Source: Nitrospira sp. (GTDB taxonomy: Bacteria; Nitrospirota; Nitrospiria; Nitrospirales; Nitrospiraceae). From it: DNA of 64,000 nucleotides. The notes beneath the pieces were generated by a model. It ran no database searches. It saw only the letters and a program-made list of their open reading frames with translations, and was not told where the DNA came from. Of this stretch, positions 7,427-47,537 are shown in pieces (position 1 is the first letter of the stretch; the number at the start of each line of letters is the position of its first letter). Both the position numbers and the translations under genes were made by a program. The stretch is taken from NCBI GenBank assembly GCA_016788885.1, contig JAEURX010000017.1, positions 62,001 through 126,000 of the forward strand, in the 5' to 3' direction.

Positions 7427-7447
7427 GACGGTATGGCGAGTAATGAG

Positions 7448-7783: not shown

Positions 7784-8258
7784 GCGCTCCCCCCTCCTTA
7801 TGCAAATGAACGATACCTCGGCTAAACAACCCACGTGCCCAAGCAAGGGCGATACTATTCGAAGGTCGTTGAGTGGAATATTCCCCAGAGGGAGGGCACG
7901 GGCGAAAACTTTGGTAGGCCAGGCTCTTTACCTAGGTGAACGATGATTCCAATGATCTCGGTTAGGCAGGCACACAGCAGATGCCCCAGTCCGAGGCGTT
8001 TGGCGGACGAACGGACACGAGGTGGACTACTCGGCGACGCATATAGGCGGTAGCAACGTGTGTCGATCCGCGGATCTATCCAAGGTGTGGTGATGACTCG
8101 TCGGAGTGGAACATGAACCAGTGGGCTAGGATGGTTTGGAAGCAAGGAATCATGAATATTCTTGAACCAAGGTTATAAAAGAGCTGGTGGAATACGCGAA
8201 CCGTATTCTTCGCATGCACAAGCGGTGTAGGATTGCCCAGGACATCTGGAGGCTCAAT
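7784..8258. other. Divergent intergenic region between secretion operon and lipocalin
   Basis: No convincing gene is seen in this stretch. It must hold the promoter for the minus-strand secretion operon and the one for the plus-strand lipocalin. It contains the perfect 12-base palindrome GATCCGCGGATC at 8065-8076 and the dyad GGAATATTCC near 7877-7886, either of which could bind a dimeric regulator. I could not identify a clear -35/-10 pair. Confidence 0.4.
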
Positions 8259-8840: not shown

Positions 8841-8985
8841 GATCTTCCAATCATTGAGTCTTCGCTGGCAGAGAGAGTTCGCACGTTGCCTCAACGACGA
8901 CCACGGTCCTTCCGTGGCGTACTCTGTCTGGCGGAGCTCCTTCAGGACTCATGGCTCCCTCTTCCCCTTCTTCCATACACCTGGC

Positions 8986-22950: not shown

Positions 22951-25900
22951 GCTGATAATCACGCTCCTTTTCAGGTTCATCCGGCCCCTTGTGGATGGAA
23001 GGAGGAATCTGATTTTTCTGACTACGACTCAGCGAACGAATCAACACAAAGAACAGCGGCACAAAGAAAATTGCGAGGAACGTGGCGGCCAACATTCCAC
23101 CGAAGACCCCCGTCCCAATTGAGTTTCGACTGGCAGCTCCGGCGCCGGTCGCAATCACCAAGGGAACGACACCAAGAATGAAGGCCATTGACGTCATGAC
23201 GATCGGGCGGAACCGGAGCTTGGCCGCCTCGATAGTCCCCTCCAGCAAGTGATGACCTTCCTCATACCGTTTGTTGGCAAACTCCACGATGAGAATGGCA
23301 TTCTTCGCCGAAAGGCCGATGAGCGTGACCAGACCGATCTGGAAATAGATGTCATTCGTCATCCCCTTCAACCAGACGGCGCTCAATGCGCCGAACAAGC
23401 CGATCGGAACCGCGAGGATGACCGCAAAGGGAACCACCCAACTTTCATATTGCGCCGCCAATACCAGAAACACCATCAACAACCCAAAGCCGAAGGCATA
23501 CAGCGATTGATTGCCGACCATGCGTTCCTGATAGGAAATGCCACTCCAATCGATTCCATATCCTTGCGGTACCAGGACCTCCTTCCCCAATTTATCAAGC
23601 GCATCCAACACCTGCCCAGAGCTCACCCCCGGCGCGGCCGAGCCCAGCACGAGCGCCGTATTGTATCCATTGAAATGGGTCACAGGATCGGGACCGCTGC
23701 TGAACTCCGTATTCACGACCGTATCCAAAGGAATCATGGTTGGTCCCTGCGCGCCAACGGCCCGCACATAAATCTTGGAAATATCGTCCGGTGTTGAGCG
23801 ATATTGCGCCTCAGCCTCTGTCTGTACGCGAAAGACGCGACCGAACTTGACGAAGTCATTGATGTATAGGTTGCCGAAATAGGCCTGCAACGTATCAAAA
23901 ACCTCCGAAATAGGCACGCCTAACGCTTTGGCGCGCTCGCGGTTTACTTTGGCGAAAATTCGCGGAGCACTGACGCGAAAGCTGGTTCCGATGGCACCGA
24001 TCGCCGGATTCTGCCGCGCTTTGGCCACAAACTCCTGCGCCACCGCCGAGAATTTATTGAAGTCGCCGCCGCTGGGATCTTGGAGCTGTATGGAAAACCC
24101 ACCCGTTGCGCCGAGTCCTCGGATCGACGGCGCGTTAAAGGCCAGGATCAACGCTTCCGGAATCTTCGCAAATTCACCATAGGCCGCACCGATCAACGAT
24201 TTGACATGTTGCTGCGGTGCCGTCCGCTCATCCCAATGCCTCAGCGGAACAAACATGGTCGCCGCATTGGGGCCACGTGTACTGAACACGAAATTTTGAC
24301 CCGAAAGCGCATCCGTTGAATGAATCGCCGGATTGGCCAAAAAGTAGCTTTCGATCTTGCTCAATACCGTATCCGTACGCTGCTTCGAGGCCCCATCCGG
24401 TAGTTGCACGATCGTGATGAAATATCCCTGGTCTTCTTCCGGCAAAAAACTATTCGGAATGATCCTGAACAACAGAAACACCCCGACAAGAAGGACGGCG
24501 AATACCGCAACCGACAGCACACGCCGCGTCAGCGCCATCCCGACCGTCGAGATATAGCGCCCCTGCATCCAGGAAAAGGTCCGGTTGAACAAACCAAACA
24601 GTCCATGATGCCGTTCTTCGCCCGGCTTGAGGACCAGGGCGCAGAGGGCAGGGCTGAGCGTCAACGCCACAAAACCTGAAATAATAACGGCAATGGAAAT
24701 CGTGATGGCGAATTGCTTGTAGAGCTCCCCGGTGATACCGCCGAGAAAGCCGACGGGCACGAACACCGCGCACAACACCAGCACAATGGCGATCACCGGC
24801 CCTGTCACTTCTTCCATTGCCCGCTTGGCGGCGTTCTTCGCCGAAAGCTTGCCCTGGGTCATGTGCCGTTCGCAATTTTCCACGACGACGATGGCATCGT
24901 CCACCACGATGCCGATGGCCAGGACCATCCCGAACAAGGTCAGGGTATTGATCGAGAACCCCAGCGCCTGCATGCCGGCGAACGTGCCGATCAGAGACAC
25001 CGGCACCGCCACACCTGGTATCAACGTCGCGCGCCAGCTTTGCAAGAAGAGGTACACCACCAGGATGACGAGCACCATCGCCTCGCCCAGCGTCTTCACC
25101 ACCTCTTTGATGGAGACTTCGATAAAGCGGGTGGTGTCATACGGAATGTCGTACGACACGCCGGTGGGAAACCCTTTGGACACCTCTGCCAATTCAGCGC
25201 GAACCCGCTTCACCGTTTCCAGCGCGTTCGCCCCCGGTGAAAGGAACGTCAACAGAAACACGTTCGGCTTGCCGTTCCAGCGCCCTTCCAGCGTATAGGA
25301 TTGCGCTCCCAGTTCAACACGGGCGACGTCCTTCAACCGGACCATGGACCCATTGGGCATGGCGCGGACGATCATCTCCTCGAAGTCCTTCACTTCCGTG
25401 AGGCGGCCTTGCGTAATGACGGGAATCGTCAGCTCGGTGCCCTTCAACGCCGGCTCCCGCCCGATAGTCCCGGCGGGAAAATCACGGTTCTGCTCGCGAA
25501 CGACATTCGCAATGTCCGTCGGCGTGAGGCTAAGTTGAGCCATGCGAATCGGGTCCAGAATCAGCCGCATTGAATAATTCTGGGACCCGAACACGATCGC
25601 ATTCCCCACGCCACGAAGGCGCTTCAGGTTGTCGAGGACGCGAAGAATCGCATAATTGGAAAGATAGACCGTGTCATGCGTCGGATCGGTCGAACTCAAC
25701 GCGACGACGGCCAACAGGTCCGGCGAAACCTTGTTGATGCTGATGCCTTGCCGGACGACTTCGGGCGGCAGCTGGGGCTCCGCGAGTTTCACCCGATTCT
25801 GCGTCTGGACCTGCGCGATATCGACATCCGTGCCGATTTCGAAGGTCAACTTGATCGACATGTGCCCGTCGTTCGTACTGGTGGAATCGTAGTACAGCAG

Positions 25901-26125
25901 GTTGTCGATGCCGGGGAGTTGCACTTCAATCGGCCGCGCCACCGAATCGGCCAGAATTTCCGCGTTGGCGCCGGGATAGTCGGCTTCGATCTGCACAACG
26001 GGAGGAGTGATTTCGGGGAACTGGGCGATCGGGAGCGCCTGCAAGGCGACTAAGCCGATCACCACGATGACGATCGACAATACCGAAGCAAAAATCGGGC
26101 GATCGATAAAGAAATGCGAGATCAC
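22943..26125 (-). CDS. RND multidrug efflux pump, HAE1 family (system 1)
   Basis: 1060 residues of AcrB/MexB/MexF type: FFIDRPIFASVLSIVIVVIGL as the first helix, two large periplasmic loops (the first with PEITPPVVQIEADYPGA) and twelve membrane segments. The proton-relay aspartates lie in the TM4 sequence GIVVDDAIVVVENCERHM, and the partner lysine is in GLSAKNAILIVEFANKRYEEG. It expels hydrophobic or amphiphilic compounds using the proton gradient, together with the adaptor (upstream) and the outer-membrane factor (downstream). Gene order adaptor-pump-channel with overlaps indicates one transcript. Substrates cannot be read from sequence. Confidence 0.96.
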   Translation of the reverse strand: MISHFFIDRPIFASVLSIVIVVIGLVALQALPIAQFPEITPPVVQIEADYPGANAEILADSVARPIEVQLPGIDNLLYYDSTSTNDGHMSIKLTFEIGTDVDIAQVQTQNRVKLAEPQLPPEVVRQGISINKVSPDLLAVVALSSTDPTHDTVYLSNYAILRVLDNLKRLRGVGNAIVFGSQNYSMRLILDPIRMAQLSLTPTDIANVVREQNRDFPAGTIGREPALKGTELTIPVITQGRLTEVKDFEEMIVRAMPNGSMVRLKDVARVELGAQSYTLEGRWNGKPNVFLLTFLSPGANALETVKRVRAELAEVSKGFPTGVSYDIPYDTTRFIEVSIKEVVKTLGEAMVLVILVVYLFLQSWRATLIPGVAVPVSLIGTFAGMQALGFSINTLTLFGMVLAIGIVVDDAIVVVENCERHMTQGKLSAKNAAKRAMEEVTGPVIAIVLVLCAVFVPVGFLGGITGELYKQFAITISIAVIISGFVALTLSPALCALVLKPGEERHHGLFGLFNRTFSWMQGRYISTVGMALTRRVLSVAVFAVLLVGVFLLFRIIPNSFLPEEDQGYFITIVQLPDGASKQRTDTVLSKIESYFLANPAIHSTDALSGQNFVFSTRGPNAATMFVPLRHWDERTAPQQHVKSLIGAAYGEFAKIPEALILAFNAPSIRGLGATGGFSIQLQDPSGGDFNKFSAVAQEFVAKARQNPAIGAIGTSFRVSAPRIFAKVNRERAKALGVPISEVFDTLQAYFGNLYINDFVKFGRVFRVQTEAEAQYRSTPDDISKIYVRAVGAQGPTMIPLDTVVNTEFSSGPDPVTHFNGYNTALVLGSAAPGVSSGQVLDALDKLGKEVLVPQGYGIDWSGISYQERMVGNQSLYAFGFGLLMVFLVLAAQYESWVVPFAVILAVPIGLFGALSAVWLKGMTNDIYFQIGLVTLIGLSAKNAILIVEFANKRYEEGHHLLEGTIEAAKLRFRPIVMTSMAFILGVVPLVIATGAGAASRNSIGTGVFGGMLAATFLAIFFVPLFFVLIRSLSRSQKNQIPPSIHKGPDEPEKERDYQHA

Positions 26126-27318
26126 GAAGCGCGCTCCGGCTGCGTCGGAGGAGCAGTCGGAACGGTCGAGGCACCGGCGGCGGGAACCGGCACAGGTTTC
26201 ACCGGCGCCCCGGGCGCGATTTTATGCAGGCCCTCTACAATAATGCGATCGCCGACATGTACCCCTTCTTCGACAATCCACTGGTTCCCCTGCCAACTCG
26301 TCGCCACAATCTCCCGCATCTCAACTTTATCGTCCTTGCCCACAACGAACACGATGGAACCCTTTGCGCCCTGCTGCACCGCGCGTTGCGGCACCAGGAT
26401 CGCGCCGGTCTTGAGGGTGCCCTTGAACCGCACCCGCACGAACTGTCCCGGCAACAACACCCGGTCCGGATTGGGAAATACCACCCGCGCCTGCCTCGAT
26501 CCCGTGTCGGTTTTCAAACCCACATCGAGCAGATCCAACACGCCTTCATGCTGGTAGGTCGTTCCGTCGACAAACGTGAGCACGCCGCGCAATTGGTACA
26601 CACCGGGATGCTGAATGCGTTTGGCATCGGTATCGCGCCTGCGTTTCAGCAAAAAACTCTCCGGCGCACTGACGATCACATACATGGGATCGACTTGATG
26701 AATCATGGTCAGCAAGTCCGTTTGTGCCGACACCAATCGGCCTTCATACACACGAGTGCGTTCGATCATCCCGCTGATAGGCGCGATGATCAGCGTATTA
26801 TCGAGATCGAATTTGGCTTTGACGAGTTCCGCCTTCGCGCCTTCGAGGGCGGCTTTCGCGGCCAGTTCTTCCGCCACCGCATCATCCACATCCTTGGTAC
26901 TCACGGCCTGTTCCGCCAACAGCGGTTTCACGCGGGCTAAATTCTGCTTAGCCTGGACAAGGCGCGCTTCGGACTGAGCCACTTTCGCCTTCGCGCTCAG
27001 CATCGCGGCATGGAAGGGCACGGGATCGATTTGATAGAGGCGATCGCCTTTCTTGACGTCGCGGCCTTCCTTGAAAAACCACTGTTTCAAAATGCCGGTC
27101 ACCTGGGAGCGTATTTCCACGGGGCGGGACGACTCCGCCTGTCCGATGAACTCCGGTTCGTCAGGCACATCCTGAGCAGCCGCCACCACAATTCCCACTT
27201 CCGGAACCTGGGGTGCCGGCGCGGAACCGGCTTCCTGCTTGCACCCCGGCAGAAGGGCCAACGCGAGCCACCCGCACACCATCGGGACTACCGTGGACCA
27301 TTGCCGTCGCCTCACCAT
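26122..27318 (-). CDS. RND periplasmic adaptor lipoprotein (system 1)
   Basis: 398 residues of MexA/AcrA type. The signal sequence ends in the lipobox ALLPGCKQEAG. The lipoyl half GQAESSRPVEIRSQVTGILKQWFFKEGRDVKKGDRLYQIDP, the coiled-coil hairpin (AKAKVAQSEARLVQAKQNLARVKPLL), the second lipoyl half and the beta-barrel/membrane-proximal domains (VQQGAKGSIVFVVGKDDKVEMREI) follow in the usual order. Its stop overlaps the start of the pump by 4 bases. It is the promoter-proximal gene of system 1; no local TetR or MarR regulator is encoded beside it. Confidence 0.95.
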   Translation of the reverse strand: MVRRRQWSTVVPMVCGWLALALLPGCKQEAGSAPAPQVPEVGIVVAAAQDVPDEPEFIGQAESSRPVEIRSQVTGILKQWFFKEGRDVKKGDRLYQIDPVPFHAAMLSAKAKVAQSEARLVQAKQNLARVKPLLAEQAVSTKDVDDAVAEELAAKAALEGAKAELVKAKFDLDNTLIIAPISGMIERTRVYEGRLVSAQTDLLTMIHQVDPMYVIVSAPESFLLKRRRDTDAKRIQHPGVYQLRGVLTFVDGTTYQHEGVLDLLDVGLKTDTGSRQARVVFPNPDRVLLPGQFVRVRFKGTLKTGAILVPQRAVQQGAKGSIVFVVGKDDKVEMREIVATSWQGNQWIVEEGVHVGDRIIVEGLHKIAPGAPVKPVPVPAAGASTVPTAPPTQPERAS

Positions 27319-34081: not shown

Positions 34082-35182
34082 TTAGGACTGCGCGCGCACT
34101 GCGGAGCCAGGCCGATCCGGCAGACTCCCCAAGGCCGTGACCGTATTCGCAAGGAACAGGACCAGCGTGACGGCATTCAGCAGGCCACCGACCTGCCGTC
34201 CCGGCCCCCACCCGGCCACATCACCGCCCAACCGTATCAATAACGTGATCTGCAACAGCACCACATGCGCATAGAACAGCGGCCGATAGGTGATGCGCGC
34301 CCCGAGCACCGCCGGAAAGATGACCGGCGCATGGGCGAAAATCATCGCGAAGACGAACCCCAGGAAAAAGGCGTGCAAGATGACGTCGTACTGCGGTCCG
34401 ACCGGCACGCCGCCATAGATCAAGGCGGCCAGTCCGCTCAGCCCCAGCCAGACATACCCGCTCAGCAGACAGATCGCCATGAATCGGGTGAGGCCCACCT
34501 GCGTCACGGTTCGCCTGGCAATGTCATGACGGCCCAACCACAGGGCCAAGCCAGCAAACCCCGCACCGGCCAGACGAACCCCGGCATCGAACGACCATTC
34601 CAACAGGACCAACCCCGTGAGCAGAACTCCCAGCAGGAACAGAAACAGCGCCTGAGCCACGGTGGTCACTTGCTGTAACCGGGCCAACTCGAGACGTTCG
34701 CCGGCAATGGTCACGAGGAGAAACGCGGCCCACCAGAATACGATGTGGAAGAAAGGTCGTCCGACGCACCAGAGCACATTGCCCATAACCCAGATGGCGG
34801 CCCCGCCACCCATCGCAAACGTATAGAGCGCCGGATGCCGCCGGATGATCGCCGCAAAGATCGCCACCAACCCGACGCTTCCGGCCAGGATCAGCACCTG
34901 TGCGACCGGCAATGGAATGCCGAGGATCAACCCTACTGCGCCCAGGCCTGTGAGCAGCGGCGCCGCATAGGCCCAGAGTTGGCCAAGCGCGACCGCTCGT
35001 TCCAGACTGATCAGTGTCCCGAGAAAACCGGACACCATCAAGGGACCATGCAAGGCAGAGAACTCCTGACGAGGTACGGGAACATCCCAGCCGAGACGCG
35101 CAAGTCCAGCCCACAACCCCGTCAGCAAGGCCACCATGCCGAGTGCGAGCAGCGGAAGCCGTCGCGGGTGTCGGATCGTCAT
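34082..35182 (-). CDS. NnrS-like polytopic membrane protein
   Basis: 366 residues with about ten to twelve membrane helices. Histidines occur in ALHGPLMVSGFLGT and in HAFFLGFVFAMIFAHAPVIFPAVLG, and FFHIVFWWAAFLLVTIAGERLELARL is also characteristic. The pattern resembles NnrS, a heme- and copper-containing membrane protein that protects cells during nitric oxide exposure. The match is by pattern only. It lies 25 bases after the hemerythrin gene, in one transcription unit with it and the DUF59 gene. Confidence 0.75.
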   Translation of the reverse strand: MTIRHPRRLPLLALGMVALLTGLWAGLARLGWDVPVPRQEFSALHGPLMVSGFLGTLISLERAVALGQLWAYAAPLLTGLGAVGLILGIPLPVAQVLILAGSVGLVAIFAAIIRRHPALYTFAMGGGAAIWVMGNVLWCVGRPFFHIVFWWAAFLLVTIAGERLELARLQQVTTVAQALFLFLLGVLLTGLVLLEWSFDAGVRLAGAGFAGLALWLGRHDIARRTVTQVGLTRFMAICLLSGYVWLGLSGLAALIYGGVPVGPQYDVILHAFFLGFVFAMIFAHAPVIFPAVLGARITYRPLFYAHVVLLQITLLIRLGGDVAGWGPGRQVGGLLNAVTLVLFLANTVTALGSLPDRPGSAVRAQS

Positions 35183-35207: not shown

Positions 35208-35753
35208 TCATGGCTCGTCCGCTGTATGCATGGGGATCGGCTCCAGGCAGTAACCCGCCCTGCCCAGCGCGCCCTCCAGCGTCTTCATCACCGCCGGACT
35301 GTCGGAGTGCGGCATGACACGGACAGCGGGCGCCGCCCGCAGCGCCGCCAGCAGCGACTCCATCTCCTTCGCCGGCAGACGATCGCAGATGGCATACAGA
35401 CCATCTTGGCCTTCCTCCAATCGGTTGTGGTCAGACAAGATCTGTCGAATCGTCGCAAGGATCTGTGCCGTCGGGGCAGGCATGAGCAAGGTCGCCAACG
35501 CACTATGATCGAGCCGAAGTTTCGCGGCAATCGGCAGAGGTGTTCCGCCCCGCCAACGCTGCACCGCCGGCAACAACAGTTTTTCCTCCATACCGATGTG
35601 CCTCAGCAGCCCCGCGCGAAATTGATCGTAGACCGCCTGGTCGATGTGATCTGCAGCGCTGGTCGCCGAATGCAACAACGCGTCTAGTCGTCGATGATCC
35701 TCCGCCAGCACGGTCGTGAGAGGACCAGACCCTTCCCTGTCTGCGACTGTCAT
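35208..35753 (-). CDS. Hemerythrin (HHE) domain protein
   Basis: 181 residues with a four-helix HHE bundle and a full set of likely iron ligands: H20 (LAEDHRRLDALL), H52 and E56 (RHIGMEEKLLLPA), H83 (LDHSALATLL), H109 and E113 (SDHNRLEEGQDGLY). The last ~55 residues (ALRAAPAVRVMPHSDSP and on) are extra. Bacterial hemerythrins bind oxygen or NO at a di-iron site and are linked to repair of iron centres. It is the first gene of a three-gene unit with NnrS-like and DUF59 proteins. Confidence 0.92.
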   Translation of the reverse strand: MTVADREGSGPLTTVLAEDHRRLDALLHSATSAADHIDQAVYDQFRAGLLRHIGMEEKLLLPAVQRWRGGTPLPIAAKLRLDHSALATLLMPAPTAQILATIRQILSDHNRLEEGQDGLYAICDRLPAKEMESLLAALRAAPAVRVMPHSDSPAVMKTLEGALGRAGYCLEPIPMHTADEP

Positions 35754-35931: not shown

Positions 35932-37404
35932 TTACCCACGACCGGCTGGTGCAGCGCCGACTGTCGGTTCGACTTGCCCGCGTGCCCCTGGAGCCTGCCT
36001 CGGTTGCGGCTGCGCCATCTCCAGCGGCGACCATCCACCACCCAGCGCCTTGTAGAGTTGCACCACCGAGACGAGTTGCAACCGATGCGTGCCGGTCAGA
36101 GCGAGTTCGGCTTCAAACAGATTCCGTTGCGCGACCAAGACATCCAGGTAGTTGGCCAGTCCGCCTTTATACCGAAGATTCGCCAACCTCAGGGCCGACC
36201 GCAAGGCATCGACCTGCTGTGCCTGTGCATCCCGTTGGTCACGCGCCGTGTGCACCGCCACCAACGCATCTTCCACTTCGCGAAACGCGACCAGCACCGC
36301 CTGTTCATATCGCGCCAGCGCCTCCCGGCCCTGCGCTTCGGCGGCGTCCTGCTGAAATCCCAGGATCTGCGCATTCAGCAACGGTCCGACCAGCCCCGGC
36401 CCGACCACCCCAAACGCTGTCTCATTGCCAACGAGACGCGACAACTGCGGACTGGCCACACCCAACATGCCGGTGATGCTCAGCTTGGGGAATCGATCCG
36501 CCTTGGCCACGCCGATCCTCGCCGTAGCCGCTGCCAATTCCTGTTCGGCTTGCACGAGATCAGGCCGGCGCTGGAGCAACTCGGACGGCAGACCTGCCGG
36601 CACCTCCGGCGGCAACACCTGCTCCGTCAAAGAACGGCCCCGCGCCACCGGCCCCGGCGGTCGCCCGAGCAGGACGCTGAGCTGATTCTCTTTCTGCACC
36701 ATCTGCCTGGTGAGCTCCGCGGCCCGAGCCGCAGCATTGGCCCGTTCCGCCTCAAACTGATCCGCATCGATACGCGAAATCATCCCCTGGCGAAGTCGCG
36801 CGTCGGCGATCCGCACCGATTCCTCCCAGGACTTCAGCGTTCGCTGCGCAACCCCGAGCTGCATATCGAACTGCAACAACTCGAAGTAGGCCTCCGCAAC
36901 GCCGCTCACCAGCTGGAGCACGACCGCACGTCGCGCGTCTTCCCTCGCGAGTAGATCGCCCCTCGCAGCCTCATTCGACCGGCGCACACGCCCCCAGATA
37001 TCCAACTCCCAAGACAAATTGCCCTGGAGGTAGTAGTTGAACGGATTGGGAAAGCCGGGAAAGAGAAAGTTCGCCTTGCGACCAAACGCCGGCGCATTGG
37101 CCGTGACATCCGCCTTCGGGGCAAACTCCATTGTTGAGATGAACAGGCGCGACTGGAATTCTTCAACGGACGCCACCGCCCGCTGCAGATCCCTGTTCTC
37201 CGCCAGGGCGATGCGAATGAGGCGACGCAATTCCTCGTCTTGCAGCAAATCCCACCAGGGCAGATTGACAAAAGACTCCGTCTCCCCATCCGACATCGCC
37301 ATCCGGAATCCGGTCGGCACCTGGAGGTCCGGACGTGAATAGTCAGGTCCAACCGCACAGCCGGCCAGAACAAAGAGAGTCATGCTGAACGCAAGTGTAC
37401 GCAT
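35932..37404 (-). CDS. OprM/NodT-type outer-membrane efflux lipoprotein (RND system 2)
   Basis: 490 residues with lipobox FVLAGCAVGPDYS. It shares long nearly identical stretches with the factor at 21517-22950, such as LFPGFPNPFNYYLQGNLSWE, ERANAAARAAEL and LRYKGGLANYLDVLVAQRNL. The C-terminus differs, with a proline/glutamine-rich tail MAQPQPRQAPGARGQ. It is the outer-membrane channel of the second pump. It follows the STAS-like gene rather than the pump directly. The two factors probably arose by duplication of one operon or by gene conversion. Confidence 0.95.
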   Translation of the reverse strand: MRTLAFSMTLFVLAGCAVGPDYSRPDLQVPTGFRMAMSDGETESFVNLPWWDLLQDEELRRLIRIALAENRDLQRAVASVEEFQSRLFISTMEFAPKADVTANAPAFGRKANFLFPGFPNPFNYYLQGNLSWELDIWGRVRRSNEAARGDLLAREDARRAVVLQLVSGVAEAYFELLQFDMQLGVAQRTLKSWEESVRIADARLRQGMISRIDADQFEAERANAAARAAELTRQMVQKENQLSVLLGRPPGPVARGRSLTEQVLPPEVPAGLPSELLQRRPDLVQAEQELAAATARIGVAKADRFPKLSITGMLGVASPQLSRLVGNETAFGVVGPGLVGPLLNAQILGFQQDAAEAQGREALARYEQAVLVAFREVEDALVAVHTARDQRDAQAQQVDALRSALRLANLRYKGGLANYLDVLVAQRNLFEAELALTGTHRLQLVSVVQLYKALGGGWSPLEMAQPQPRQAPGARGQVEPTVGAAPAGRG

Positions 37405-37416
37405 GTGTCGCCAATC

Positions 37417-37722
37417 CTATGCCGGGTCGCAGCGGCCGGAGGCCGACATGGGTCCCGTCCCGGTAATTTCTCCCACGATGTGCTTGGTGCAGCAGCCATG
37501 GGCAATCAATGCCGCCCCTTCCCGCCACATCCTGGCGAGGAGCGCCTTGCCGTCCTCCGAAATGAATGTGATGCCGGCGAGTTCGACGACAGGGGCGAAC
37601 ATGCCGGACTGGCGCACGGTTTGCCACACTCGTTCCAGTTCCGTCACCCACGGCCCGCTCAAGCTGCCTTCCAGGGTCAGGCGTGCGGAATCTCCACTCT
37701 GCTCCGACGTAATTTTCAGCAT
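37417..37722 (-). CDS. STAS-like small protein inside the RND operon
   Basis: 101 residues from ATG 37722 (GGGA at 5 bases); a GTG at 37737 overlapping the pump stop is also possible. The layout is that of a STAS/anti-sigma-antagonist domain: MLKITSEQSGDSARLTLEGSLSGPWVTELERVWQ, VVELAGITFISEDGKALLARMWREGAAL, the usual strand-helix alternation with a central DGK in place of the phosphorylatable Ser motif. The C-terminus has a cluster of cysteines (HGCCTKHIV, GRCDPA) unusual for the family. It lies between pump and outer-membrane factor on the same strand with tiny gaps, so it is part of the operon. Confidence 0.75.
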   Translation of the reverse strand: MLKITSEQSGDSARLTLEGSLSGPWVTELERVWQTVRQSGMFAPVVELAGITFISEDGKALLARMWREGAALIAHGCCTKHIVGEITGTGPMSASGRCDPA

Positions 37723-37733
37723 GGTTGTCCCAT

Positions 37734-40700
37734 TCACCCCTTCGCACTGGCGAGTTGCAAGCCCGGCTCCTCGGCTGCGTCCAGTTCCTCCGCCGGCTGA
37801 TGCCGCGTCGCGATCAATGCATAGAACACCGGCACCACAAACAACGTGAACAGGGTGCCGACCGTCATGCCCGTGACCAGCACCATGCCGATGCTGTTAC
37901 GCGCCGCCGCGCCGGGCCCCGACACCAACACCAACGGCAGATGGCCAAACACCGTCGCCGCCGAAGTCATCAACACCGGCCGCAATCGCGTCATGGCCGC
38001 TTCGCGCAAGGCTGCCGTCTTCGACAGACCTCGCGCCTGCAAGGTGTTGGCGAACTCCACGATGAGAATGCCGTTCTTCGCAATCAACCCGACCAGCGTA
38101 ATCAAGCCGACCTGCGAGTAGATATTGATCGTCGTGAGATCCAAAAAGCTGAACACCAGGGCGCCGGAAATCGCCAAGGGCACCGAACCCAACAACACGA
38201 TCAGGGGATCGCGGAAACTCTGGAATTGCGCGGCCAGCACCAGATAGATCAGCACCACCGCAAACCCCAGGGTCACGATGAGGGCCGACCCCTCGTGCCT
38301 GATCTGGCGTGATTCACCCGCAAAATCAAGGGTCGTGCGAGAACCGGCGGCGGCCGCAGCGGCAGTCTCCAACACCCGCAGCGCTTCGTCTTTCGTCATG
38401 CCGGGCTTCACGCCGCCGAAGATACGCACCGCATTTCGCTGTTGAAACCGATTCAGCGTGCGCGGGGCGGTACTGGTCTCGATGCGGGTGAAGGTCGAGA
38501 CCGGGACCAACTGGCCTCCGGGCGTTTTGATTTTCAAGTCGAGCAGCGGATCCAGTGTCGCCCGATCCTTGTCGCCGATCTGTGGAATGACCTTGTAGCT
38601 CCGGTCATAAAAGTTGAACCGATTCACGTACGCGCCACCGAGCAATGTGCCCAATTCCTGGCCGACGCGCGCCAGATCGAATCCCAGGTCGGCCAGCCGC
38701 TCACGATCGATCACGACCCGGGCCTCGGGCAAATCAATCTTGAGGTCCGTATCGACGTAGAGGAACTTCCCGCTCTGCCAGCCGGCTCCGAGCACCGCCC
38801 CCGTAATGTCCAGCAACTGCGCCGCTGGCAATTCGCTTTCCAGGATCAATTCCACGTCATACTGGCCGGGCGTCGGCAGCGGCGGATCGAGCCGTGGAAA
38901 GACTCGCAAGCCGGGAATTTGGGAGACCGCGCCATAGACCTGGCCATACATCATCTCCGTCGAACGAGATCGTTCGCGCCAATCCTTGGCCACCAAGCCG
39001 CCGAACCCTCCCCACGAAGATGTCAGCGACCAGGTGAAGCGCGCCTCGGGGAACGATCGGAGTGCGTCGATGACCTTCAAGGAATCCCGGTTGGTTGCCG
39101 CCACCGTCGAGTCCGGCGCCGCTTCGAGGAAGAGACTGATGTGACTCTGGTCTTCCACCGGCGCCAGCTCCTGTCGCGAGAACTGGTACAACGGCCAGGC
39201 CGCGACCATCACCAACAGGGCCGCGGCCACGATCGCCCAGCGCATCTCCAATGCGCCGTCGAGCAGACGTCCATACGCCGCGCGTGTGGCGTCGAAGACT
39301 CGATTCACGAGCTTGGTCAACCGCCCTTCCTTGCCTTCAGGATGGACGAAGTACGAACTCATCACGGGCGAGAGCGTGATCGCCACGACACCGGACAGAA
39401 CCACGGCGGCAGCCAGCGTCATCGCAAACTCCAAGAACAACGATCCCGTCAACCCGCCTTGAAACCCGATCGGGGCATACACGGCAGCCAGCGTAATCGT
39501 CATGGCAATGATGGGTCCGACCAACTCGCGGGAGCCGAGCAGCGCCGCCTGCCGTCTGGTGTTCCCTTCACGGACATGCCGCTCGACGTTCTCGACGACC
39601 ACGATCGCATCGTCCACCACCAACCCCACCGACAACACGATGGCGAGGATCGTCAATAGATTCAGACTGAAGCCGAACGCATACATAAAGATCGCCGCGC
39701 CGACCAACGACACCGGCATGGCCACCAACGGCACCAAAGCTGTCCGCACCGAGCCCATGAACAGAAACACCACCGTCGCGACGATCAGAATCGTTTCCCC
39801 GAGCGTCTTGGTAATTTCCGCCAAGGCGCTCCGCATGAACATGGTGCCGTCCCACACCAACTGCATGTCGATGTCTTTCGGCAGGGTGGGCCTGATGCGC
39901 TCCATTTCCTCCCGCAGGCCTTGGGCCACGTCGATCTCATTCGAACCCACAAGAGGCCAGATGCCGAGATACACGCCCTCCGTCCGATTGTACTTGGCGA
40001 CCATGTCGGCTTCCTCAGCGCCATTCTCGACCCGCGCCACGTCTCTCAAGCGCACGATGGCTCCGCCGCGATCCGTGACGATAAGGTCCTCGAACTCCTC
40101 CGTGCTTCGTAGATCCGTATTCGCCAGGAGATTGACCTGCACCAAGTTGCCCTTCGTCCGGCCCACCGCAGCCAAGTAGTTGTTGCGCCGCAACGCCGCC
40201 TGCACATCGCCGGGCGAGAGGTTGTAGGCCGCAAGACGATCCGGATCGATCCAGACACGCATGGCGATCTGGCGGCCCCCCTCAATGGTCACACGTTGCA
40301 CCCCGGTCAACGTCGCGAATTGCGGTTGGAGTGACCGCAACAGCCAGTCCGTCAACGCCGGCACCGTGCGATCAGGCGAGGTGAAACTCAGGTAAAACGA
40401 GGCGTAGGGACGATCGGCCCGCTGCACCTCCACGGCAGGCGGCTCCGCCTCCGCCGGCAGCTCCGACCTGACTTGTTGCAACCGGGCCGTCACCTCGGCC
40501 AACGCCGCCGTACTGTTGTGATTGAGTTTCAGATGGACCGTGACGGTACTGACGCCGGCCCGGCTGGTGGATTCCAGATAGTCGACGCCGCTGATGGCGG
40601 ACACCACCCGTTCGATCGGCGTCGTCAGAAACCCTCGCACCGTCTCGGCACTGGCCCCGTAATAGACCGTGGTGATGACGATCGACGAACTTTCAATCTT

Positions 40701-40817
40701 CGGGTACTGCTGCACCGGGAGGGTGGTCAGCGCGCGCCAGCCGACGAGCACGATGACGAGGTTGATCACCACGGCCAACACCGGGTGCTTGATAAAGACA
40801 TCGGTAAAGGAACGCAT
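37734..40817 (-). CDS. RND efflux pump, HAE1-type, second subfamily (system 2)
   Basis: 1027 residues from the ATG at 40817 (GAGG 7 bases upstream), starting MRSFTDVFIKHPVLAVVINL. It keeps the relay motif VGLVVDDAIVVVENVERHV and the lysine in VGLIAKNGILIVEFANTLQ. In the periplasmic part the sequence clearly differs from the pump at 22943-26125 (for example LPVQQYPKIESSSIVITTVYYGASAET), placing it in an MdtB/MexI-like group rather than the AcrB/MexF group. It is the membrane transporter of system 2 and sits between adaptor and STAS gene. Confidence 0.95.
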   Translation of the reverse strand: MRSFTDVFIKHPVLAVVINLVIVLVGWRALTTLPVQQYPKIESSSIVITTVYYGASAETVRGFLTTPIERVVSAISGVDYLESTSRAGVSTVTVHLKLNHNSTAALAEVTARLQQVRSELPAEAEPPAVEVQRADRPYASFYLSFTSPDRTVPALTDWLLRSLQPQFATLTGVQRVTIEGGRQIAMRVWIDPDRLAAYNLSPGDVQAALRRNNYLAAVGRTKGNLVQVNLLANTDLRSTEEFEDLIVTDRGGAIVRLRDVARVENGAEEADMVAKYNRTEGVYLGIWPLVGSNEIDVAQGLREEMERIRPTLPKDIDMQLVWDGTMFMRSALAEITKTLGETILIVATVVFLFMGSVRTALVPLVAMPVSLVGAAIFMYAFGFSLNLLTILAIVLSVGLVVDDAIVVVENVERHVREGNTRRQAALLGSRELVGPIIAMTITLAAVYAPIGFQGGLTGSLFLEFAMTLAAAVVLSGVVAITLSPVMSSYFVHPEGKEGRLTKLVNRVFDATRAAYGRLLDGALEMRWAIVAAALLVMVAAWPLYQFSRQELAPVEDQSHISLFLEAAPDSTVAATNRDSLKVIDALRSFPEARFTWSLTSSWGGFGGLVAKDWRERSRSTEMMYGQVYGAVSQIPGLRVFPRLDPPLPTPGQYDVELILESELPAAQLLDITGAVLGAGWQSGKFLYVDTDLKIDLPEARVVIDRERLADLGFDLARVGQELGTLLGGAYVNRFNFYDRSYKVIPQIGDKDRATLDPLLDLKIKTPGGQLVPVSTFTRIETSTAPRTLNRFQQRNAVRIFGGVKPGMTKDEALRVLETAAAAAAGSRTTLDFAGESRQIRHEGSALIVTLGFAVVLIYLVLAAQFQSFRDPLIVLLGSVPLAISGALVFSFLDLTTINIYSQVGLITLVGLIAKNGILIVEFANTLQARGLSKTAALREAAMTRLRPVLMTSAATVFGHLPLVLVSGPGAAARNSIGMVLVTGMTVGTLFTLFVVPVFYALIATRHQPAEELDAAEEPGLQLASAKG

Positions 40818-40834
40818 GGTCGTGCCTCTCTGAC

Positions 40835-41962
40835 TCACGGTTGTCCCGACACGTGACTTGAATCGGACTGCATGTCCGGCCCGCCGGCGGCGACGACGAG
40901 TACGCCGTCCCGCAGTTTAAACGCACCCGATGCCGCCACCTGCTCACCCACGCTCAACCCTGCATGCACGATGATGTCATCGCCCGACATCGCACCACTC
41001 TCGACTTGACGCAGATGCGCACGGGATTTGCCTTGGCCGTCCGGACCGATCACGAACACCTGATCGCCGCCTGGTCCCTTCCGCAACGCATTCACCGGAA
41101 TGGCCACTGCGCTATGCGGCGCCCCCACCCGCACCTTGATCCGCACGGCGGCGCCCGGTGCAGGCATGGAAGGAGAGTGGTCGATCCTGGCGCGCACCAT
41201 CGCATTCCGCGTCGCGGGATCGATACGGGCATCCAACGCGACGATCGTGGCTTGAACCGGAGCCGCCTCACCGGCCGGATAGACATCCACCAGGTCGCCG
41301 TGCCGCAACCCGACCGCGACATGCTGCGGTACCGCAAAGTCCACATGCACGGCTTCATCGATCCCCTGGAGGGTCGTGAGCGACGTGCCTTCATTGAGGT
41401 ATTGCCCCGGATGGACATCGGCAAGGCCGACCCGGGCGCGGAACGGAGCACGGATAGTCTTACGGGCAATCAACGCTTTCGTGCGGGCGATTTGCGCCTG
41501 CGCAACATCGAGATCCGCCCTGGCGCGATCGACCTCTTCCTGAGCCGCGGCAAGATCCTGGGTCAAGGCTCGGCGTCGATCGAGAACCGTACGCGCCAAG
41601 ACGGCTTGAGCCTGTTGAGCACGAAGATCAGCCTCTTCCACCGAGACATCGAGCGCCACCAGAACCGCGCCGGCCTGCACGATGTGCCCCGGAGTGAATC
41701 GCACCTGGCTCACGGTCCCGGCCAATTCATTGCGCAGGGTAATGGAACGGAGCGCCAATACTGTTCCGATCGATGTAGAGGTCTGATGATGGTCAACAGC
41801 CCTGGCTACAGCGAGCGTCACGACTTCCATCGGCTCCGGCTGGTTCGCTGACGCAGCGGCTTGGTTCTGGATACTGCCGTATTTCCAGGCTCCCAACCCC
41901 ACCCCGACTGCAACCACCATCAGCAGCAGCAACGACGATCCGATCCACCCACGACGATTCAT
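40835..41962 (-). CDS. RND periplasmic adaptor (system 2)
   Basis: 375 residues from ATG 41962, with ribosome site GGGAGGG. The first helix (WIGSSLLLLMVVAVGVGLGAW) has no lipobox, so it is membrane-anchored, unlike the system 1 adaptor. Lipoyl halves (LRNELAGTVSQVRFTPGHIVQAGAVLVALD and TIRAPFRARVGLADVHPGQYLNEG), a short hairpin (RALTQDLAAAQEEVDRARADLDVAQAQIARTKAL) and barrel domains (NALRKGPGGDQVFVIGPDG) follow in standard order. Its stop region overlaps the pump's possible upstream GTG. It is the first gene of system 2. Confidence 0.93.
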   Translation of the reverse strand: MNRRGWIGSSLLLLMVVAVGVGLGAWKYGSIQNQAAASANQPEPMEVVTLAVARAVDHHQTSTSIGTVLALRSITLRNELAGTVSQVRFTPGHIVQAGAVLVALDVSVEEADLRAQQAQAVLARTVLDRRRALTQDLAAAQEEVDRARADLDVAQAQIARTKALIARKTIRAPFRARVGLADVHPGQYLNEGTSLTTLQGIDEAVHVDFAVPQHVAVGLRHGDLVDVYPAGEAAPVQATIVALDARIDPATRNAMVRARIDHSPSMPAPGAAVRIKVRVGAPHSAVAIPVNALRKGPGGDQVFVIGPDGQGKSRAHLRQVESGAMSGDDIIVHAGLSVGEQVAASGAFKLRDGVLVVAAGGPDMQSDSSHVSGQP

Positions 41963-42146
41963 GAGCCCTCCCGGCCAGTGACAGATGTAGCAGGCCACTC
42001 CCGCGTTTCACATTTAGATGACGGTGACGGACACAGCGCAACAGGCGTTCCTTCCGAACGGCCCGTCCACGCCTTCGTCTCACCACTGATTTCATCGACG
42101 CCATTCCCACCACACTCCTCTCAAGGCCCGGACACGATGCGGGTCT

Positions 42147-42252: not shown

Positions 42253-43209
42253 TCAGCTCGCGAGCCCCTGCACCTGAATCATTCGCACCGATACCGTCCC
42301 TTCCGCGGTGGCGCGCCAGGCCTCAAGACCACCGGCGAGCGGCCAGACTCGCGAGAACCCTTTCTGCTGCAACAGCAACACTCCCTGCGCACTTGCGGCA
42401 TCAGCCGGGCACGCGCAATACAGTACCAGGTCGCGGGAACGCGGTAGCTCTCCATGCCGATGCGCTAAATCCTCCAATGCAATGTGCAAGGCGTTGGGAA
42501 TGCCCGGCTCTGCCTCCACGGTCTGGCGCGGCCGCACATCGATGAGCAGCGGAGGCTCGGACGTCGTTAATTTGTCCAACAATGCTTCCACCGTCATTCT
42601 CGGGATCGTCTGAAGTTGTCGGCGCAGATGCCACGCCTTCCAGCCGATGTAGGCCGGGAAGAGGATCACTGTTGCCAGCACAAGCGCCGGCATAACCCGC
42701 TCCGAATAGGCCAGAGCCTGCTCCACCTGCCCACTGAAGAGCAGGCCGACCCCCAATCCCGACCCAGCCCAGGCGGCCGCACCCAGCGCGTCATAGAGCA
42801 GGAACAGCGGGAGCCCCAATCCGACAATCCCCGCCAGCGGCGGAGCGATGGTGCTCAACCCTGGGATAAACTTCGCCACCAGCAGCGACTGCACGCCATA
42901 CCTGCGGAACAGGTCCTCCGTCTGCCGCACGCACGCGTCCGGCTCCAACGCAATCCGGCAGAGCAGCCTAAGCATAGGGCGTCCGCGCCACCGCCCGGCG
43001 AGAAACCAGACAACATCGGCCAGCAGCGTCGCCGACAGCGCCGCGATCAACGCACCCGACCAGGTAAGGTGGCCGGCCCCCACCAACACACCCGCCGCCA
43101 CCAACAGCGGCAACGCCGGAAACGGCAACCCGAGTTGTTCGGTCAACACGCCGCCAAACAACACCCACGCCCCATGTTGTTCCAACAAGTCGCCCACCGA
43201 TTCCATCAT
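42253..43209 (-). CDS. DedA-family membrane protein fused to a rhodanese domain
   Basis: 318 residues from ATG 43209 (GAGGAG upstream). Residues 1-200 are a DedA/SNARE-associated domain: HGAWVLFGGVLTEQLGLPFPALPLLVAAG, LLADVVWFLAGRWRG, FRRYGVQSLLVAKFIPGLSTIAPPLAG and several helices. The C-terminal ~100 residues form a rhodanese domain: PPLLIDVRPRQTVEAEPGIPNALHIALEDLAHR, active-site cysteine in DLVLYCACPADAASA, and GFSRVWPLAGGLEAWRA. DedA proteins move lipid carriers or maintain the proton gradient; rhodaneses transfer sulfur or sense redox state. The fusion places the sulfur domain on the cytoplasmic side. Confidence 0.93.
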   Translation of the reverse strand: MMESVGDLLEQHGAWVLFGGVLTEQLGLPFPALPLLVAAGVLVGAGHLTWSGALIAALSATLLADVVWFLAGRWRGRPMLRLLCRIALEPDACVRQTEDLFRRYGVQSLLVAKFIPGLSTIAPPLAGIVGLGLPLFLLYDALGAAAWAGSGLGVGLLFSGQVEQALAYSERVMPALVLATVILFPAYIGWKAWHLRRQLQTIPRMTVEALLDKLTTSEPPLLIDVRPRQTVEAEPGIPNALHIALEDLAHRHGELPRSRDLVLYCACPADAASAQGVLLLQQKGFSRVWPLAGGLEAWRATAEGTVSVRMIQVQGLAS

Positions 43210-43363
43210 CCACTCCTCTTCGACTCCCGCCGACCCACGTCGCAGCGAGATACAAAGCAGGGATTGTTCCAGCATACGAGACCATGCAGTGGGAGGAGGA
43301 TCAGCTGATCCCGAAAGGAGTTAGCGTGATGAGCGAAAGACAAGCCGATGTGTCGAAGCGGTG

Positions 43364-43450: not shown

Positions 43451-44716
43451 TCAGGGGTGGTGCCGATCTTGAGGCTGATCGATGAGTCGAGCGCCTGGTT
43501 TGAAGGTCAGGTAGTACCAGATCCATTCGGAGACCACGCGGAAGCGATTGCGAAAGCCGATCAGAAAAAAGATATGCACGGTGCACCAGAGCAGCCAGGC
43601 CACCAAACCGGACACGTGAATCGATCCGAATTGCGCCACAGCCTTGGCACGACCGATGGTGGCTAACATCCCTCGATTGAAATAGCGAAACGCGACCCGA
43701 TTCATCGGCGGCGTCCGACCAGTAATGATCGTCGCCACGTATTGCCCCTCCTGCATGGCGACCGGAGCCACACCCGGCAGCGGATGGCCTTGCCCGTCCT
43801 GCACGGCGGCGGCATCCCCGATCACGAACACCCAGTCGTCTCCAGGAACTGTCAGATCAGGCCGCACGAGGACCCGGCCCGCCTTGTCCAAAGGGACGTG
43901 GAGCGAGCCTAGAAGTGGAGAGGCACGATTACCCGCTGCCCAGATGATGTTACGAGTCTCGATGACGTGCCCGTCCAGCGCCACACCATTCGGGCGAACG
44001 TCACGTACCGCCTGATTCACGAGGACAGTCACGCCCATCGACTCCAACGTACCCTGCGCATTCGCGGACAGATCAGGCGGAAAGCTCGAAAGGATTCGTG
44101 ATCCCGCCTCGACGAGGAGGATCTTGACTGCACGACGCTGCAGAGAAGGAAAATCCGGGAGCATGGCATTGCGACCGATCTCCGCCATGGCCCCGGCAAG
44201 TTCCACACCGGTTGGGCCTCCACCCACAATAACGAACGTCAATGGAGCCGTATCGTCAGACGTGGCAGCATGGCGCTCCGCCTCCTCAAAGGCCAGCAGC
44301 ATGCGTGCACGCAAGGCAACCGCATCGGCGAGCGTCTTGAGTCCCGGGGCAGACCCCTCCCAGTCGGGATGGTCGAAATAGGCGTGTCGGGCACCGACCG
44401 CAACGATCAGGACATCGTAGGGAATCGGCGGCAGGTCCGTCGCGTGTACCTGCTTGGCCGCACGATCAATCCCTTGTACCTCCCCCATCACGACACGAAC
44501 GTTCCGCTGCGACCGGAAAATGGTCCGCAGCGGCCAGGCGATATCGCCCGGCGACAGAGCCGCCGTGGCCACCTGATAGAGCAACGGCTGGAAGAGATGG
44601 TGGTTCGTTCGATCGATCAGGGTGATGTCGACCTCGGCCTCTCGCAGCGCTTGCGCCGCCGCCAATCCGCCGAATCCACCCCCGATAATGACCACGCGTG
44701 TGAGGGTCGTCTCCAT
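43451..44716 (-). CDS. Type II NADH dehydrogenase-like FAD oxidoreductase
   Basis: 421 residues. An N-terminal FAD-binding Rossmann motif (VVIIGGGFGGLAAAQALREAEVDITLID) is followed by LLYQVATAALSPGDIAWPLR, the second NAD-binding site (TFVIVGGGPTGVELAGAMAEIGR) and the second FAD motif DDWVFVIGDAAAVQDGQGHPLPGVAPVAMQEGQYVA. The C-terminal LVAWLLWCTVHIFFLIGFRNRF is the membrane-association segment usual in NDH-2. It would pass electrons from NADH to quinone without pumping protons. It stands alone between the DedA-rhodanese gene and the sigma-54 activator. Confidence 0.93.
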   Translation of the reverse strand: METTLTRVVIIGGGFGGLAAAQALREAEVDITLIDRTNHHLFQPLLYQVATAALSPGDIAWPLRTIFRSQRNVRVVMGEVQGIDRAAKQVHATDLPPIPYDVLIVAVGARHAYFDHPDWEGSAPGLKTLADAVALRARMLLAFEEAERHAATSDDTAPLTFVIVGGGPTGVELAGAMAEIGRNAMLPDFPSLQRRAVKILLVEAGSRILSSFPPDLSANAQGTLESMGVTVLVNQAVRDVRPNGVALDGHVIETRNIIWAAGNRASPLLGSLHVPLDKAGRVLVRPDLTVPGDDWVFVIGDAAAVQDGQGHPLPGVAPVAMQEGQYVATIITGRTPPMNRVAFRYFNRGMLATIGRAKAVAQFGSIHVSGLVAWLLWCTVHIFFLIGFRNRFRVVSEWIWYYLTFKPGARLIDQPQDRHHP

Positions 44717-44930: not shown

Positions 44931-47537
44931 TTACAACGGTCGGGCGATGCCGAGTTTCTGCATCTTGGACTGGAGCGTCGTGCGCTTCATCCCCAGCCTA
45001 GCGGCGGCTCCGGACGATCCCCCGATAACCCAATGCGTGTCCCGCAGAGCCTTGAGGATATGATCGCGTTCGGCGTCCTCCAGCGTCGTGACCGACCCGT
45101 TGGGCAGAGTGGCGTGACGTTTCAATTCCGCCGTCGGCACGAAGAGCTCCGACCCGGATGACAAGATGACGGCCCGCTCGATGAAGTTTTCCAACTCCCG
45201 CACGTTGCCGGGCCACCCATAGGATTGCAGCGCGCGCATGGCGTCAATCGGCACCGTCTCGATGTGTCTCTTCATGCGCGAGGCAAATTTCTGGACGAAA
45301 TGCCGGACGAGCACCGGCACGTCTTCGACTCGGTCGCGCAGAGGAGGCACAGTCACCGGGAAGACCTTCAGGCGGTAATAGAGGTCACTGCGGAACTTCT
45401 GTTCCTCCACCATCTGCCCCAGGTCACGATTCGTCGCGGCGATGACACGGACATTGACCCGCATCGTCCTGGTACTGCCCAACCGTTCGAATTCCTGTTC
45501 CTGGAGCACGCGCAGCAACTTGACCTGCAACTCGAGCGGAATCTCCCCCACCTCATCGAGAAAGATCGTCCCGCGATCCGCCAACTCGAATCGTCCGATT
45601 TTCGTGGCGATCGCGCCGGTAAAGGCGCCCTTTTCATGGCCAAAGAGCTCGCTTTCCAACAAACCGGTGGGAATCGCGGCGCAATTGAGTTTGACGAAGG
45701 TCCGTTCCCGTCGGCCGCTGAGATTGTGGAGCGCGCGCGCGATCAGTTCCTTTCCGCTTCCTGTCTCGCCGAGAATCAACACCGTGGAATCAGTGGCCGC
45801 CACCGTCTGCACCTGGTTCAGTACCTGGTTCAGCGCACGGCTCTCCCCGACGATCTCCTCAAAGTTGTAGGCCGTTTGAATTTCCTCTTCGAGATAGACC
45901 TTTTCCTTCGCCAAGGTATCTTTGAGGGCCGCGATCTCCCGGAACGCGAGGGCGTTCTCGACCGCGATGGCGATTTGCTGCGCGACCTGCCCAAGCAGTT
46001 GCACATCCTCCGGATCGAACCCGGCGTCCTTCCGCCGTCCCACATTCAAGGCCCCCAGCGCACCGTTACGAGAGAGTAACGGCACGGAGCAGAACGATTT
46101 GATGCCACGATCCAGCAAATCCTGTGCGCAGGGTGAGGTGCCCCCCATCGCCAGCAACTCTCGCTCTCCGAACAAGGCCGGCTTCCCCGTCGTAATCGCC
46201 AGACAGGACGGCGACTGTATGCTCTCCTCGATACGCCCTTCCTCAATGAAGTTTTCGTTCCGATCGAAATCCAACACATGGATACGCCAGCGGCCGGTGT
46301 TCTCATTGCACAGCAGCAGGCTCGACCCGTCATGCTGAATCACCCGGCGCAAGCAACCACTGACGGCGGGAAACAGTTGGTCCAAATCCAGGTGCGAGAC
46401 CACGGCGTTGTTCACTTCGAGCAGCAGGCGTTGCCGGTCGCGCTCCCTTGTCAATTGCGCTTGATAGGCCAGGGTGGACTCCGAGTTGAGCGCGTTGTCC
46501 AATGCCACCGCGACCTGTTGCGCCACCTGCTTCATGAAGGCGATTTCGCTCTCGAGATAGATTCGCGGCTGCAGGCTCCCGAATCCCATCGCCCCGAGAC
46601 GTCGTTGCGCGGTCGTGAGGGGTACCACACAGAACGAGCGCACGCCGTTTTGCCGGAACAGTGCCATCAACGCGGGAAATCGTTGCTCACGCTCAACATC
46701 ATCAACCGTCAGGGGCTGCTGCGTCTTCCACACCAGGCCACCGGGCGATTCGTCGACCGGCGTTTCCAATCCCGGTTCAATCGTGGATCGCTCTGACGTC
46801 ACCAACAGCCAAAGCCGCATCATGTCGCGTGACGGATCGTACCGCACGACGTTCATGAAATCGAACGGCACCACCTGGGGCAGCCGTTGAGCCAGGTCGG
46901 CCAGCAACAGACGCTGATCATGGTGCGACGCGATCGATTCCGTCACCTCGAGCAGGAGACGCAGCCGGTCCCGGTCTCGGGCCAGATCCTGGTGATGCAG
47001 CACGTTGTCCACGGCGACCGCCACCAACTTGGCCACCTGATTGAGAAAGGTGACGCTGCCTTCGTCAAAGGCAAAGGGCTTCAAACTGCCGAACCCAATG
47101 GCGCCCACCCGGCGCATGCCGGTCGTGAGCGGAAAGAAGCAGACGGATTGCATGCCGATTCCACGCAGGGCGTCCATCCCGACCTGAAACCGCGTTTCCT
47201 CCGCCAGCGAGGGAATCAGGATCGGTTGTTGATGCTCCCACACCCACCCGCTGGCCGAGTCCTTCATCGGCATTTCAAGCCCGTCGAGACGCCGTGTCAC
47301 GCGCCGGGCCTCCGCCGTTTCGAGGACATGCACTTGCATCACCTGTTTGGCGGCATCATGCAACACCAGTCCGACGAAATCGAACGGCGCCACCACCGGT
47401 AGGCAGTGCGCCAGATCCTGAAAGAGCGACGGCAAATCATGGTGCGCGGCAATGACCTCGGCCACCCGCAACAGGGCTGCGCCTTGATCGGCCACCATCG
47501 GTTCGACACTGCTTGGCATCATCTCGTGCATGCGCAT
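44931..47537 (-). CDS. Sigma-54-dependent activator with three GAF domains (FhlA-like)
   Basis: 868 residues. Three GAF domains (about 20-190, 195-360, 375-550) share the repeated phrases [13 protein letters not shown] / [13 protein letters not shown] and [15 protein letters not shown] / [16 protein letters not shown] short linker leads to the AAA+ domain with Walker A GETGSGKE at about 590, the sigma-54 contact loop GAFTGA at about 637-642, Walker [10 protein letters not shown] and arginine-finger region [14 protein letters not shown] Fis-type HTH closes it ([21 protein letters not shown]). The arrangement matches FhlA-type activators. Ligand and targets are unknown; no -24/-12 promoter was found near it. 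Confidence 0.96.

Follow-up and report, generated by a model that had tools for sequence, protein, structure and literature searches.

What is a gene for a single STAS domain doing inside the operon of a multidrug exporter, and on what would its product act? The question is raised by a stretch of 64,000 nucleotides from Nitrospira sp. (GCA_016788885.1, contig JAEURX010000017.1, positions 62,001 to 126,000), here called the window, in which the original prediction, made from the sequence alone, had placed a STAS-like gene between an RND pump and its outer-membrane factor. The open reading frame is indeed there, with gaps of 11 nt to the RND permease gene and 12 nt to the outer-membrane-factor gene, and the features around it are as follows.

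35208..35753, minus strand: hemerythrin HHE protein (PF01814, E 2.4e-7)
35932..37404, minus strand: outer-membrane factor of the NodT family (TIGR01845, 365 bits, cut-off 210)
37417..37722, minus strand: STAS-only protein gene, 101 aa (ATG at 37722, stop at 37417-37419)
37734..40838, minus strand: RND permease (ACR_tran, HAE-1 type; PF00873, E 8.7e-244)
40835..41998, minus strand: periplasmic adaptor (membrane fusion protein; TIGR01730, 174.5 bits, cut-off 94.9)
42253..43206, minus strand: VTT (DedA-like) + rhodanese protein, start placed by homologues (about 43206)
43257..43271, minus strand: sigma-54-type -24/-12 site TGGAACAATCCCTGC, 65 nt upstream of the VTT start, a consensus match only
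43451..44716, minus strand: NADH-dehydrogenase-like flavoprotein (NDH-2-like), between the activator and the exporter operon
44931..47537, minus strand: sigma-54-dependent activator with three GAF domains, AAA+ with GAFTGA, and Fis HTH (Pfam), of the STAS-linked clade in the tree

The mechanical start of the VTT-rhodanese ORF is at 43275 and its homologues start at about 43206; the exporter operon probably starts with this gene. The NDH-2-like name was judged by eye from the sequence, with no family hit behind it, and homologues of this gene adjoin the exporter operon in a few other loci. Beside the HHE gene, window positions 34082-35182 (minus strand) encode a 366-residue, probably multi-membrane-spanning protein, for which no Pfam or NCBIfam match was found at the limits used. 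A second adaptor-RND-outer-membrane-factor operon, which has no STAS gene, lies at 21562-27264 (minus strand), about 9 kb from the STAS operon; it is of the type found directly 3' of the STAS gene in many relatives, and in five loci (L076, L078, L079, L092 and L105) both pumps are adjacent, with the STAS gene between them.

The STAS ORF has a pairwise dN/dS of 0.10-0.22 against seven relatives and is, therefore, a gene under purifying selection. Its ATG start is conserved, MLKIT being the N-terminus common to its relatives. A chance ORF or a strain-specific insertion was rejected, since relatives are widespread and dN/dS is low. No signal sequence was seen in the protein by eye, and it is probably cytoplasmic.

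On its own the window protein matches no Pfam family, and among NCBIfam models only TIGR00377 (SpoIIAA/RsbV) was hit (E 0.19, 11.6 bits, cut-off 53.45). Its family is more readily recognised: PF13466 (STAS_2) is matched by 37 of 48 members (E up to 1; best 1.2e-6) and PF01740 (STAS) by 31 of 48 (E up to 1), while two fused relatives reach 23.6 bits against a curated STAS profile cut-off of 29.2. The AlphaFold model of the window protein (mean pLDDT 85.1, pTM 0.76) has the beta-beta-alpha-beta-alpha-beta-alpha order of a STAS fold, and its best PDB match is the anti-sigma antagonist 4qtp (Z 11.8, 89 residues, 1.8 A). Anti-sigma antagonists as a group gave Z 11.8 to 10.3, SpoIIAA (1thn) Z 11.2 and MlaB (7cha) Z 8.2. 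The closest solved folds are SpoIIAA, RsbV and RsfB; misses in the structure search are not counted as absence. As judged from the predicted model, the family has the STAS fold; the identity given in the original prediction is upheld, and no different fold was seen.

The gene is also not peculiar to this strain, a possibility that the original prediction had named as speaking against it. The source genome has two copies at E <1e-10 (in the window and on contig C43), at least one relative is present in 67 of 98 sampled Nitrospiraceae genomes, and a profile search found the family in 57 of 245 genomes of the phylum Nitrospirota and in 30 of 297 Acidobacteriota genomes. Scanning named genomes brought up 116 relatives; among the best 80 of these 116, 73 bear the name Nitrospira, Nitrospirae or similar (two of them Nitrosospira) and 7 the name Acidobacteria, Acidobacteriota or Terriglobia. 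Carriage by viruses or plasmids was considered and rejected, as eight pattern matches in viral contigs included no relative and plasmid records gave no match.

How constant is the exporter? Neighbourhoods were counted in three sets of STAS loci (80, 20 and 27) that overlap in part, the last being acidobacterial and made up of 7 loci from G292-G294 (one of which, L205, coincides with L086) and 20 further places from 45 Acidobacteriota hits. An RND exporter is present in 70/80, 13/20 and 10/27 loci, respectively (within 9 kb and on the same strand in the set of 80), and in those loci of the set of 80 that have at least 5 kb on both sides it lies within 9 kb of the STAS gene in 48 of 50. The arrangement of the window, with the STAS gene after the RND gene and before the outer-membrane-factor gene, occurs in 21 loci; elsewhere it stands before the adaptor gene or after the outer-membrane-factor gene. 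The original prediction of an RND operon component is, thus, half right: the association is conserved, but it is not specific to RND pumps, as relatives also sit with an MFS or ABC pump plus adaptor, or with no exporter. An MFS exporter is beside the STAS gene in the acidobacterial locus L115, the C43 copy in the source genome is accompanied by genes for an adaptor, an ABC ATPase and an ABC-2 permease, and the 27 further acidobacterial loci contain RND (10), ABC (4), MFS (3) or partial (2) exporters, with none found in 8. Two members of the genus (L011 and L023) keep the STAS gene with the outer-membrane factor missing or largely deleted. The adaptor, pump and NodT/TolC components of the STAS-bearing exporters are ordinary, and the source genome has 16 RND matches; in 11 regions around its other RND matches no STAS gene was found, and only one of these regions has sigma-54 activators. 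A hemerythrin HHE gene accompanies the STAS operon in 18 of 80 loci, and lies between the STAS and adaptor genes in L067, L070, L071, L081, L084, L087, L088 and L093.

The other neighbour is a sigma-54 activator (GAF or PAS, AAA+, Fis HTH), which most STAS loci have upstream, in the same orientation. It lies within 9 kb in 55/80, 12/20 and 20/27 loci, short contigs included, and stands close beside the STAS gene in five loci where no exporter was found (L113, L200, L201, L241 and L254); in L113, at about 4121-9503, the activator and STAS pair is upstream of a phosphoketolase gene. In a tree of 96 AAA+ stretches, which used 30 of the 31 source-genome activators and has many long background branches, 66 STAS-linked rows together with those of the window and C43 form one clade (support 100/98) that excludes 27 of 28 other sigma-54 activators of the source genome. 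A third clade activator of the source genome (C55), the one of these 28 that falls inside, stands beside an outer-membrane factor and an adaptor with no STAS gene, and the activator can therefore go with exporters alone. Within the source genome the clade scores at least 369 bits and the other activators at most 313; intermediate scores occur in other genomes.

The two genes also occur together. With clade activators counted above 375 bits, 62 Nitrospiraceae genomes have both, 5 the STAS gene only, 2 the activator only and 29 neither (Fisher 1.8e-17); in Acidobacteriota (activator E up to 1e-100, STAS E up to 1e-8) the corresponding counts are 27, 3, 11 and 256 (Fisher 2.7e-26), and all these counts and p-values overstate the case because genomes and loci share ancestry. 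In Nitrospiraceae, 72 of 96 clade activators have a STAS gene within 15 kb, downstream and on the same strand in 72/72; the remaining 24 have none within that distance, and some of them have one on another contig. Of 29 listed activators scoring 330-375 bits, 4 have a STAS gene within 15 kb, again downstream on the same strand. In Acidobacteriota, 26 of 52 activators have a STAS gene within 10 kb (23 downstream on the same strand, 3 divergent), 26 of 45 STAS genes have an activator within 10 kb and 19 do not, and 11 of 38 activator-bearing genomes have no STAS gene. In one locus set, 4 of 6 ABC-linked loci also have no clade activator within 9 kb. A mirror-tree comparison of the 51 loci that have all five proteins, based on identity distances, short alignments and the nearest exporter gene, gave r 0.70 between STAS protein and activator (partial 0.53), and partial correlations with the STAS protein of 0.28 for the adaptor, 0.11 for the outer-membrane factor and -0.20 for the RND permease. 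Exceptions apart, one activator lineage shares both the occurrence and the evolution of the STAS gene; as far as genomes and trees can tell, its steadiest partner is the activator and not the pump. An acidobacterial ORF in L206 (7974-9707, minus strand), in which a sigma-54 AAA+ protein ends in a partial STAS-like stretch without GPW, and which has the gene of a response-regulator sigma-54 activator nearby, was set aside as evidence of pairing, since it looks degenerate.

Promoter sites were searched with a weight matrix and consensus patterns, and the sites reported are consensus matches only. The strict pattern TGGMAYN5TTGC, of which about 0.011 matches are expected per locus, was looked for within 400 bp ahead of the STAS gene. 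It occurs in 25 of the 72 loci in which the gene directly before the STAS gene is not one for an RND, VTT or outer-membrane-factor protein, and in none of the 28 in which it is. No strict match was found upstream of the window operon; the site at 43271-43257 was found after the -12 element had been relaxed from TTGC to YTGC. Relaxed sites stand 62-64 nt ahead of the VTT gene in four orthologous loci and 129-142 nt ahead of the adaptor gene in nine, and none was found ahead of the first operon gene in the remaining loci where the STAS gene follows an RND, VTT or outer-membrane-factor gene.

There is good support for placing the STAS gene in a sigma-54 exporter module. Since the activator is its steadiest partner, the STAS protein most likely acts on the activator, and we put the probability that it is a feedback partner of the sigma-54 activator, the two together governing export operons, at roughly 0.45. 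To hypothesize, one activator lineage and the STAS protein would form a control module over export operons, mostly of the RND type. The N-terminal GAF/PAS domains would sense a signal, whereupon the activator would open the sigma-54 promoter before the exporter operon; the STAS product of that operon would then most likely bind the activator and adjust or shut off its activity, resulting in a feedback loop like that of PspA on PspF or NifL on NifA, but built with a STAS domain. That the activator drives the operon and that the STAS protein binds it, as well as the sign of the effect, are inferred. The wider claim, of an undescribed module of activator and dedicated STAS protein that, in two phyla or more, is placed over pumps of unrelated class, with the STAS protein as direct feedback regulator, is held tentatively, at somewhat less than even odds.

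The conserved residues agree with a binding role. Residues were counted in three sets of STAS sequences (80, 20 and 29) that overlap in part: all three have an invariant G19 and an almost invariant G58, and G23-P24-W25 and E28 are nearly invariant in the first two. In the predicted secondary structure, GPW comes after strand 2, a DxxGK stretch after strand 3 and GC77 after strand 4, which should place them together along one edge of the STAS sheet. This edge is the partner-binding edge of STAS proteins, which points to protein binding as the conserved function of the family.

Would the bound partner rather be the exporter? The main rival to a feedback partner of the activator is an accessory protein of the MlaB kind, which would bind the cytoplasmic face of the exporter and tune or stabilise it. 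The STAS gene does lie inside exporter operons, between permease and outer-membrane factor, and the MlaB fold is similar (Z 8.2). This rival keeps its support because of a joining, in one frame, of the STAS sequence ahead of the outer-membrane factor, and not to the activator, which recurs in five acidobacterial loci:

L096:8001-9656: STAS-outer-membrane-factor ORF
L109:4880-6529: STAS-outer-membrane-factor ORF
L204:8283-9932: STAS-outer-membrane-factor ORF
L237:6390-8120: STAS-outer-membrane-factor ORF
L240:5384-8551: STAS and outer-membrane factor in one long ORF, ending in an adaptor

In these ORFs the STAS part precedes the apparent signal sequence of the outer-membrane factor. On the other side, the STAS gene persists where the inner-membrane pump is of another class (RND, MFS, ABC) or missing, the RND permease gives a negative partial correlation in the mirror-tree comparison, and the 11 other RND regions of the source genome do without a STAS gene. 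We consider an MlaB-like accessory unlikely, and a cytoplasmic subunit specific to RND pumps was lowered on two of these grounds, namely, relatives that go with MFS, ABC or no exporter and the negative partial correlation.

The original prediction had also drawn attention to an unusual C-terminal cysteine cluster, possibly a redox or metal switch on the pump. HGCC and GRCD are present in the C-terminus of the window protein, but the cluster is not a feature of the family: the cysteine of GRCD is found in close relatives only, and Cys77, kept in 77/79 and 20/20 complete sequences of the first two sets, is mainly a Nitrospirota residue, being kept in 3 of 26 complete acidobacterial sequences and replaced in 23. 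A thiol, metal or NO switch, in which Cys77 with Cys78, Cys81 or His81 would sense redox state or metal and gate the pump or the activator, draws on this conservation, on a C-x3-C or CC-x2-H motif in 60 of 80 sequences of the first set, on the position of Cys77 after predicted strand 4, at the edge with the other invariant residues, and on the hemerythrin gene as a frequent neighbour. However, with Cys77 in so few acidobacterial sequences, this residue is dispensable for the core function, and a thiol or metal switch can, therefore, be no more than an elaboration within Nitrospirota. The cysteine cluster was lowered as a core mechanism on these grounds, the case for a switch on the pump is weak, and we regard this reading as very unlikely.

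The closest solved folds (SpoIIAA, RsbV, RsfB) would fit an anti-anti-sigma or partner-switch protein of the classical kind, with an unlinked kinase or anti-sigma factor as its target. Yet at the SpoIIAA phospho-serine position, as placed by alignment and the SpoIIAA motif, 2 of 129 family sequences have Ser/Thr and 78 have Asp/Glu, the window protein having Asp57 before the conserved Gly. In addition, the TIGR00377 score is far below the cut-off, and no constant kinase or anti-sigma gene was noticed in reading through the neighbourhoods. Little credence is given to this alternative. Least likely of all is a hitch-hiker: a stress protein would then be carried along in sigma-54 exporter regulons and touch neither activator nor pump directly. 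In favour of this it can be said that all evidence of association is genomic; against it stands an activator lineage that is constant across two phyla and three pump classes.

These considerations suggest that the STAS protein is an unrecognised regulatory partner of the sigma-54 activator. The original prediction knew of no RND operon with a STAS component, and in the open-access literature searched, outside of which most subscription papers lie, we likewise found no description of a STAS protein with RND efflux or with a sigma-54 activator. Among the papers found there, work on STAS domains and multidrug efflux is foremost that on MlaB, and work on sigma-54 enhancer-binding proteins and RND efflux is that on Pseudomonas. 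Multidrug exporters are usually thought to be controlled by local repressors or two-component systems; if a STAS feedback partner is confirmed, its pairing with a sigma-54 activator would amount to a new layout of efflux control in Nitrospira and soil Acidobacteriota. STAS domains, known from anti-sigma switches and transporters, would gain a role at sigma-54 activators, and STAS anti-sigma logic would extend to these from alternative sigma factors.

Among known systems, SpoIIAA, RsbV and RsfB share the STAS fold, the single domain and the length of the window protein. They differ from the family in the phospho-serine position, which is replaced here, often by Asp/Glu, and the window protein does not reach the profile cut-off of SpoIIAA/RsbV (11.6 vs 53.45 bits); unlike them, the family travels with a sigma-54 activator and exporters. 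MlaB, reported to be a STAS regulator of an ABC transporter (PMC7367683), is likewise a stand-alone STAS_2-type domain encoded with an envelope transport system. The MlaB operon has the MlaF ATPase and MCE, whereas the neighbours in the window are RND permease, adaptor, outer-membrane factor, VTT-rhodanese, HHE and others; MlaB is a subunit of MlaFEDB, whereas the operons in which the STAS family is found encode tripartite exporters of several pump classes.

Separate protein partners of sigma-54 activators are known in PspA-PspF, NifL-NifA and HrpV-HrpS, and none of PspA, NifL and HrpV is known to be a STAS domain. In each of these pairs a separate protein is genetically paired with one activator, as the STAS protein seems to be here, and like the PspA-type partners it is probably a product of the operon under control. 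Compared with ordinary RND, MFS and ABC tripartite exporters, the STAS-bearing ones add a STAS gene and a sigma-54 activator of one lineage.
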